From positions 124,001 through 188,000 of the forward strand of contig NZ_PWAA01000053.1 of the NCBI RefSeq assembly GCF_003031585.1: DNA of 64,000 nucleotides, written 5' to 3'. This document shows, in pieces, positions 40,809 through 41,407 of the stretch. The notes under the pieces are model-generated. The model saw nothing but the letters and a program-made list of their open reading frames with translations. It was not told the origin of the DNA and searched no databases. Origin of the DNA: Thalassobius sp. I31.1 (lineage in GTDB: Bacteria > Pseudomonadota > Alphaproteobacteria > Rhodobacterales > Rhodobacteraceae). The position numbers and the translations under genes were made by a program. Each line of letters begins with the position of its first letter. The stretch's first letter is position 1.

Positions 40809-40900
40809 TATGCATAAGATGTGCATAGAAAGTGCATGGATTGTGCATACGGATATTCAAGGATTTCCGTCGATTTTTCTGTTCACATCAAGGTGTGCAT
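40809..40900 (+). promoter_or_regulatory. Helically phased TGCAT repeats
   Basis: TGCAT occurs at 40811, 40822, 40833 and 40844, exactly 11 bp apart, within units TATGCATAAGA, TGTGCATAGAA, AGTGCATGGAT and TGTGCATACGG. A fifth copy (TGTGCAT) is at 40894-40900, 52 bp on, about five helical turns. All sites face the same side of the helix. It lies in the 315-base gap before the small secreted gene at 41037, which otherwise holds only the upstream terminator and a short frame at 40903. Confidence 0.75.
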
Positions 40901-40902
40901 AT

Positions 40903-41040
40903 ATGAACACCAAAAAGGCGATTATCACGGTTCTGTGTCTTGAAGGTTGGGCAGTTTACCCCCAAATCAATCACATCGGAAGCAACAAGACTTCCACCAA
41001 AATTCAAAACACCCAGACCCTTGAAAGGTTAACGCTATGA
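40903..41040 (+). CDS. Possible 45-residue leader peptide
   Basis: ATG 40903 with AAGG nine bases upstream opens a 45-codon frame (MNTKKAIITVLCLEGW...) whose TGA overlaps the ATG of the next gene (ATGA). The overlap would allow translational coupling. The peptide has no family I recognise and the next gene has its own ribosome-binding site, so this may be only 5' leader RNA. Confidence 0.3.
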   Translation: MNTKKAIITVLCLEGWAVYPQINHIGSNKTSTKIQNTQTLERLTL

Positions 41041-41333
41041 AAACTGTAATCGCATCCATCCTCGCCCTGACTGTTGCTGCTCCTGCTTTTGCTGGTGCCA
41101 AAGATGTTGAAGCTCACTTCGCCCAGGACAACACCGGTATCGAAAGCGTTGTTGCTGAACGCGCTGCTCCGGTAACTGCAGAAGCTGTTGTAATCTTTGC
41201 TGATCTGGCTGCAGAAGCTGGCACAGGCATCGAAACACAAGCTAACCCTGTTGTGGGTGCAACCCTGTCTTCCAAAGGCGGCGTGAACCCTGTGGCAGCG
41301 GCATGGATTGCTGAACAGGTTGCTTCTGAGTAA
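41037..41333 (+). CDS. Small secreted protein of unknown function
   Basis: 98 residues. A signal peptide (MKTVIASILALTVAAPAFA) with an AFA cleavage site, then a 79-residue mature part rich in Ala, Val and Glu, without cysteine: AGAKDVEAHFAQ, VVAERAAPVTAEAVVIFAD, GGVNPVAAAWIAEQVASE. AAAGG lies before the ATG. Strong codon regularity, own terminator and elaborate upstream DNA suggest a well-expressed, regulated gene. Function not known. Confidence 0.75.
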   Translation: MKTVIASILALTVAAPAFAGAKDVEAHFAQDNTGIESVVAERAAPVTAEAVVIFADLAAEAGTGIETQANPVVGATLSSKGGVNPVAAAWIAEQVASE

Positions 41334-41368: not shown

Positions 41369-41397
41369 AAAGGCCCGGAATGTTTTCCGGGCCTTTT
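41369..41397 (+). terminator. Bidirectional terminator
   Basis: AAAGGCCCGGAA (41369-41380) and TTCCGGGCCTTT (41385-41396) form a perfect stem with T-rich flanks on both strands, between the small secreted gene and the convergent kdkA-like gene. Confidence 0.93.
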
Positions 41398-41407
41398 TGT
41401 GTGCGTC

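Follow-up and report, generated by a model that had tools for sequence, protein, structure and literature searches.

An array of TGCAT units in exact 11-bp steps lies ahead of a gene for a small predicted secreted protein in the 64,000-nucleotide stretch of Thalassobius sp. I31.1 analysed here (the window), which raises the question of whether the array serves that gene or belongs to a larger system. The features of the locus are as follows.

40809..40849, + strand: four-unit array of the unit TGTGCAT-N4 with an 11-bp period, one of 41 aligned copies in this genome (G000)
40853..40858, + strand: ATATTC word that closes the 11-bp register on its 3' side; the 41-copy alignment is enriched for it at +44 to +49
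40881..40908, + strand: separate imperfect palindrome GTTCACATCAAGGTGTGCATATATGAAC, which contains a fifth TGCAT (40896-40900) and is seen in the gene copies
41037..41333, + strand: gene for a predicted secreted protein of 98 amino acids, multicopy and dispersed according to sequence and genome searches
41370..41398, + strand: intrinsic-terminator-like hairpin and T run, recognized from sequence near the end of the repeated unit

The four TGCAT units start at 40811, 40822, 40833 and 40844. Such a four-unit match occurs once in the window and in none of 60 first-order Markov simulations (64 kb, both strands), with an analytic expectation of about 1e-5 over all periods from 6 to 30, and two-unit matches number 3 against 0.51 expected. 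Positions and simulations therefore bear out the original prediction of four units at 11-bp steps. That prediction also placed a fifth copy on the same face of the DNA, which does not hold: the TGCAT at 40896 lies 52 bp beyond the start of the last array unit, a distance not divisible by 11, and is out of phase with the array. It is instead part of the separate element (GTTCAC..GTGTGCATATATGAAC) in the promoter of the 98-aa gene, a counterpart of which is also present in array-less gene copies of Halocynthiibacter namhaensis RA2-3 (G002), for example L006 and L015. When the 41 copies are aligned, the register of 11 bp runs on into the ATATTC-like word, and similar A/T-rich words with a TTC ending are found beside the arrays of other genera.

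The 98-aa protein matches no Pfam family at E<=0.1, and its AlphaFold model (mean pLDDT 37.6) is uninformative. The gene is present in the window's genome as six full copies and two whose contig stops in the 5' UTR, in Paenihalocynthiibacter styelae MYP1-1 (G001) as eight copies and in H. namhaensis as nine, two of them partial, with no match in the remaining 58 of the 61 genomes searched. BLAST homology among the dispersed copies stops near the terminator-like hairpin. Absence of the array from homologous genes had been named beforehand as a sign against a local role, and the outcome is split: the array is upstream of 8/8 copies in G000 (two at contig ends) and 8/8 in G001, but of 0/9 in G002. 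In this genus, an array forms part of the promoter unit of the multicopy secreted-protein gene, and the one in the window is such a case. The signal-peptide DNA of the family (41037-41333 and copies L002-L023) is near-identical across copies and species, synonymous sites included, which suggests gene conversion or a constraint at the RNA level. Beyond the terminator, several copies have 8-mers in tandem, for instance GTTTTCTA or GTTTTCCG, some near contig ends (noted in the flanks of L002, L003, L007, L009, L011-L015, L018, L021 and L023, with L003 looked at only roughly).

The check proposed with the original prediction, a search for the same array elsewhere in the genome and in relatives, was answered in the affirmative on both counts. 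The window's genome yielded 41 arrays, of which 36 are perfect by the four-unit pattern and at least two of the others (L137, L138) are degenerate; they have unit-specific spacers in common, and none overlaps a called gene. With up to two mismatches, a three-unit pattern gave 81+77 matches in G000 (reversed-pattern control 0+0), 74+74 in G001 (control 0+1) and 7+9 in G002 (control 2+1). Exact three-unit TGCAT arrays are present in 21 of 394 genomes of the family, some with dozens of matches, and the reversed control is 0 throughout. Each count depends on the exact pattern of a single core, and a genome whose arrays have another core is therefore scored negative. Array numbers per genome are 41 in G000, 23 in G376 and 47 in G325. 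Sampled sets came from G325, G258, G287, G034, G110, G089, G171, G093, G328 and G075, that of G325 comprising 20 of its 47 arrays, all in the first 2.5 Mb. Only 3 of the 142 arrays examined overlap a gene (two in G258, one in G089) as called by our own crude caller. The arrays are spaced more evenly than chance in G376 (p 0.007) and not clearly so in G325 (p 0.07). A scan of viral contigs for the array pattern returned 79 stretches, 12 of which match on both strands.

Array surroundings are varied. Many arrays lie <150 bp from a start codon, and no functional theme was recognized by eye among the flanking genes; array L261 (G287:C18) has a MipZ/ParA-like gene, so named by eye, at a distance of 184 bp. 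In G000, TTAA or TGAA occurs at -20 in 17/41 arrays and at -31 in 16/41 (background 0.9% per position), words 11 bp apart that we take to resemble the CtrA box. The counts are 4/23 and 1/23 in G376, and neither position has such a word in any of 53 arrays from G325, G258, G034 and G287. A universal CtrA-like TTAA box at the arrays was thus rejected.

A candidate for the protein that reads the arrays emerged from clustering the neighbouring proteins: three genera have the same kind of small protein, with its start at a distance of 44 to 88 bp from an array. All five proteins scanned match PF14384 (BrnA_antitoxin; E 5.7e-13 to 4.8e-14), which we take to be a ribbon-helix-helix (RHH) family. In the window's genome the gene lies elsewhere.

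G000:C33:84749-85120, outside the window: gene for an orphan BrnA-like RHH protein

An alignment built from three array-bearing genomes finds this protein in 134/394 family genomes at E<=1e-6, and in several relatives without TGCAT arrays the RHH gene is preceded by 11-bp repeats with a different core. Fifty RHH loci were compared, namely the 30 strongest matches and 20 hand-picked ones, seven of the latter chosen for their GTATGG arrays. Among periods of 8-15 bp, the best repeat period upstream of the gene is 11 bp in 41/50 loci, the core varying between genomes, and the repeats reach p<=0.02 against 60 shuffles in 37/50. G325 and G376 have no repeat array upstream of the RHH gene despite their many arrays. 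The best period is 12 bp at L284 (G170) and L298 (G130), possibly a variant phase. A Pfam scan (E<=0.01) of eight RHH-gene neighbours from six loci detected no toxin family; it returned DUF4170 (2), Inositol_P, thymidine kinase, ACP_syn_III (2) and LysR, and one further neighbour has a weak NMN_transporter match below its cut-off. Neither a ParA-type partner among the called neighbours nor an actin-like ParM gene was recognized by eye at eight RHH loci. The alignment matched no PDB sequence at E<=1, and the G258 protein, the one query used, matched no plasmid or phage record at E<=1e-5.

The repeats upstream of the RHH gene predict the arrays of the same genome core by core. Arrays of the core GTATGG, which precedes the RHH gene in G075 and G093, occur in 10/394 genomes, these two and eight more; every one of the ten has an RHH match, and TGCAT arrays are absent from all of them (the reversed control gave one match each in G131 and G328 and 0 elsewhere). 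GTCTTS array matches number 17 in G103 and 9 in G390 (two at its own RHH gene), and the predicted GTCTTS core was not found in G147. GTRCAS array matches number 85 in G212 (two at its own RHH gene), 5 in G257, 3 in G013 (one at its own) and 1 in G223; G356 has 54 matches, counted on both strands as its core is palindromic, two of them at its own RHH gene. In each search, the five non-cognate genomes included were free of matches on both strands, and the reversed controls gave a single match, in G223. Overall, the core at a genome's own RHH gene predicts arrays in 7/8 genomes tested, and each of the seven has one or more arrays elsewhere than at that gene.

Arrays and protein also tend to occur together. 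At E<=1e-20, an RHH gene is present in 21 of the 22 genomes with at least three TGCAT or GTATGG matches, against 65/394 overall (a hand count from the search listing; p 3e-17), and at E<=1e-6 the figures are 21/22 and 134/394 (p 8e-10). Among genomes with any TGCAT array, 14/21 have an RHH match. The seven that lack one at E<=1e-6 are G368, with five array matches, and others with one or two; in G368 the gene may have been lost, have diverged or be missing from the assembly, or the genome may be an exception. H. namhaensis has no full-length RHH homologue, only a 38-residue profile match, and one intact array left, at lpdA. This array (L268; G002:C23, contig position 912) is perfect and precedes a gene that resembles dihydrolipoamide dehydrogenase by eye, as does an array at G000:C5:33854.

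The predicted contact residues, placed by eye on the strand that presumably corresponds to that of Arc repressor, covary with the core in a manner that is suggestive. All 13 loci with K at residue 1 have GT(A/C)T cores, and 19 of the 21 with R have TRCA/G cores, the exceptions being G103 (GTCTT) and G097 (GTATGA); the association (p 1e-7) is uncorrected for kinship. Among loci with an assigned core, N at residue 2 is confined to the three GTCTT loci, all of which have it. Both traits are available for 34 of the 50 loci; 14 are without an assigned core (including G170, G231 and G403), and the table omits G394 (Q) and G100 (K,T,R with GTATGG, missed by the strand pattern). G170 (R, GTATG, 12-bp period), which lies outside the count, would oppose the K/R rule. 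Across the tree the core switches at least 12 times; given the poor resolution of the tree, with one independent K/R pair on well-supported branches, the covariation, which is not secured against kinship, is suggestive. Taken with the arrays upstream of its gene, it indicates that the orphan BrnA-like RHH protein is probably the reader of the arrays. Cooperative protein binding to phased sites, as originally predicted, accordingly becomes plausible in that a candidate ligand can be named, the binding itself being our reading of the sequences.

The arrays show replication polarity in six other genera, and a weaker one in the window's genome. In samples of the six, 78/80 arrays lie on the locally C-rich strand. 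By genome, local GC skew is negative on the array strand in 23/23 arrays of G376 and, in the samples, in 19/20 of G325, 20/20 of G258, 7/7 of G287, 5/6 of G034, 4/4 of G110, 1/2 of G089 and 1/1 of G002; pooled without G002, the polarity is 79/82 (p ~4e-20). The main contig of G376 (2.97 Mb) comprises two skew halves, over both of which its arrays are spread with no concentration near the terminus, and the four arrays at which local skew opposes that of their half still keep to the strand that is C-rich locally. The coding fraction on the array strand averages 0.50-0.58 in G376, G325, G258, G287 and G110, and gene direction therefore fails to explain the polarity in the large sets; it is 0.81 in G034 and 0.84 in G089. 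In G000, raw skew is negative for 32/41 arrays, and 33/41 obey the polarity after correction for gene direction (27/33 away from the 98-aa gene and 6/8 at it). The window array is itself an exception, as it lies on the G-rich strand (contig mean corrected skew +0.03), its skew having been measured on the whole 64-kb window and that of the other G000 arrays on 3-6 kb. Sampled GTATGG arrays have the same polarity in 20/20 cases when read in the frame of the RHH protein, and the palindromic core of G356 has no polarity by itself.

We consider it likely that the arrays are chromosome-wide, mostly four-unit, 11-bp-phased sites of the RHH protein that serve as directional landmarks for chromosome organization or segregation rather than as operators of neighbouring genes. 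Physical binding, its stoichiometry and the biological role are what we infer from these computed patterns. The combination of phased direct repeats and an RHH protein suggests an oriented filament of tandemly arranged protein: one RHH dimer would occupy each 11-bp unit, the dimers would stack along one face of the helix, and a short oriented filament would form on the array. The preferred orientation on the replication strand and the intergenic placement whatever the gene direction make directional landmarks the most likely role, and the same orientation, combined with chromosome-wide spread and indifference to gene direction, argues for an organization linked to replication or segregation. 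Oriented arrays could then mark direction for something that travels along the replichore, be it the fork or a segregation or loop-forming machinery. The system may guide segregation, shape loops or act on forks.

Several other readings account for part of these observations. Presence upstream of every copy of the 98-aa gene in both G000 and G001 is what would be expected of a cooperative transcription-factor site regulating that gene, the local role originally proposed for the array. This we regard as quite improbable, and a simple promoter operator was rejected as the main role: 33/41 arrays lie away from the gene, 12/41 sit between convergent genes, the genes flanking arrays have no theme recognizable by eye, and the gene persists without arrays in its nine H. 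namhaensis copies. A wider regulon, in which an ordinary global RHH transcription factor uses three or four direct repeats as operators and polarity is a by-product, has in its favour that RHH proteins are frequently repressors, that many arrays are close to start codons and that the RHH gene may regulate itself, judging by the repeats upstream of it. It is nevertheless unlikely given the strength of the strand polarity, its independence of gene direction and the share of convergent sites, which is 12/41 in G000 and 7/23 in G376 (where 19/137 intergenic gaps of at least 80 bp are convergent).

The polarity could also have arisen if the arrays were mobile or replicating repeats (MITE- or REP-like) oriented by insertion into the lagging-strand template, as the sporadic distribution, dispersed copies and strand bias would allow. 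Site and orientation are, however, kept between genera at an intergenic site beside cytochrome c/idi-like genes in G258 and G376 and at a gene resembling chorismate mutase in G000 and G034 (gene names assigned by eye), conservation around the arrays is limited to short flanking words, and the core changes in step with the RHH protein, all of which makes this origin very improbable. Polarity across the whole chromosome would equally suit a polar, Ter-like replication-fork barrier in place of an organizing or segregation landmark, but the spread of the G376 sites over both skew halves, without clustering near the terminus, leaves such a barrier rather improbable.

Landmarks for chromosome organization or segregation thus remain our preferred reading. 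Whether they amount to a chromosome-orientation system of the Rhodobacteraceae, in which an orphan RHH protein assembles on dozens of 11-bp-phased arrays, pointing the same way along each replichore, that provide directional marks for replication or segregation, and in which the specificity of protein and arrays switches together across the chromosome in the course of evolution, we judge to be an evenly balanced matter. A literature search, mostly without full texts, found no account of such an orientation system. If it is real, chromosome-wide binding sites have been rewritten several times in one bacterial family alongside a few residues of a single small protein, with the phase and orientation of the arrays kept throughout. 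It would constitute a natural experiment in how a DNA-binding protein and its sites across the genome evolve together, offer a directly testable candidate for the reading of direction on bacterial chromosomes beyond FtsK-KOPS and Tus-Ter, and suggest a role for orphan BrnA-type proteins.

Comparison with known systems sets the arrays apart from two classes of repeated site. The DnaA box consensus is a TTATNCACA-like 9-mer; arrays of DnaA boxes were rejected since the other strand of the unit reads nnATGCACA, with the leading TT not conserved, and the core becomes GTATGG or GTCTT in relatives whose arrays have like anatomy. Operators of the PhoB/OmpR type are 11-bp direct repeats in the promoters of a regulon, and were rejected in view of the mixed contexts of the arrays (12/41 convergent). 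BrnA, the antitoxin of a type II toxin-antitoxin system, has the same BrnA_antitoxin domain (PF14384) as the protein described here, but BrnTA differs in that the eight neighbours scanned at six loci include no toxin family, and in that dozens of dispersed arrays are associated with the protein here. In the ParR/parC centromeres of plasmids, an RHH protein sits on 11-bp direct repeats, one centromere per plasmid, beside parM. The likeness lies in 11-bp direct repeats upstream of an RHH gene (41/50 loci; fold taken from the Pfam family, binding putative), and the difference in the dozens of chromosomal arrays found here. Tus-Ter and FtsK-KOPS share a fixed orientation of sites relative to replication, which here follows local GC skew in 78/80 arrays of six genera and 33/41 of G000; their sites are single short motifs read by other proteins, unlike tandem arrays with lineage-specific cores.

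The nearest precedents, as far as the parts of the sources consulted go, are SegB and CdbA. SegB of the SegAB system of Sulfolobales is an RHH protein with ~46-49 sites scattered over one chromosome, for which a role in chromosome organization has been proposed (PMC12284271). It resembles the system described here in its fold, in its dozens of scattered sites, some of them upstream of its own cassette as the arrays are upstream of the RHH gene, and in its proposed organizing role. The SegB sites are 13-bp palindromes mostly inside genes, the cassette includes the ParA-like partner SegA, and the system is archaeal; the portion consulted makes no mention of polarity (PMC12284271). CdbA of Myxococcus xanthus, an RHH protein that binds globally across the chromosome with a direct-repeat consensus and bends DNA, is important for nucleoid organization and has a minor effect on transcription (PMC7156744). 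It differs in binding c-di-GMP and in that most of its 569 ChIP peaks are intragenic, and neither four-unit 11-bp arrays nor replication polarity is mentioned in the part of that source consulted (PMC7156744). What CdbA has in common with the candidate described here is an RHH protein with direct-repeat sites along the whole chromosome.
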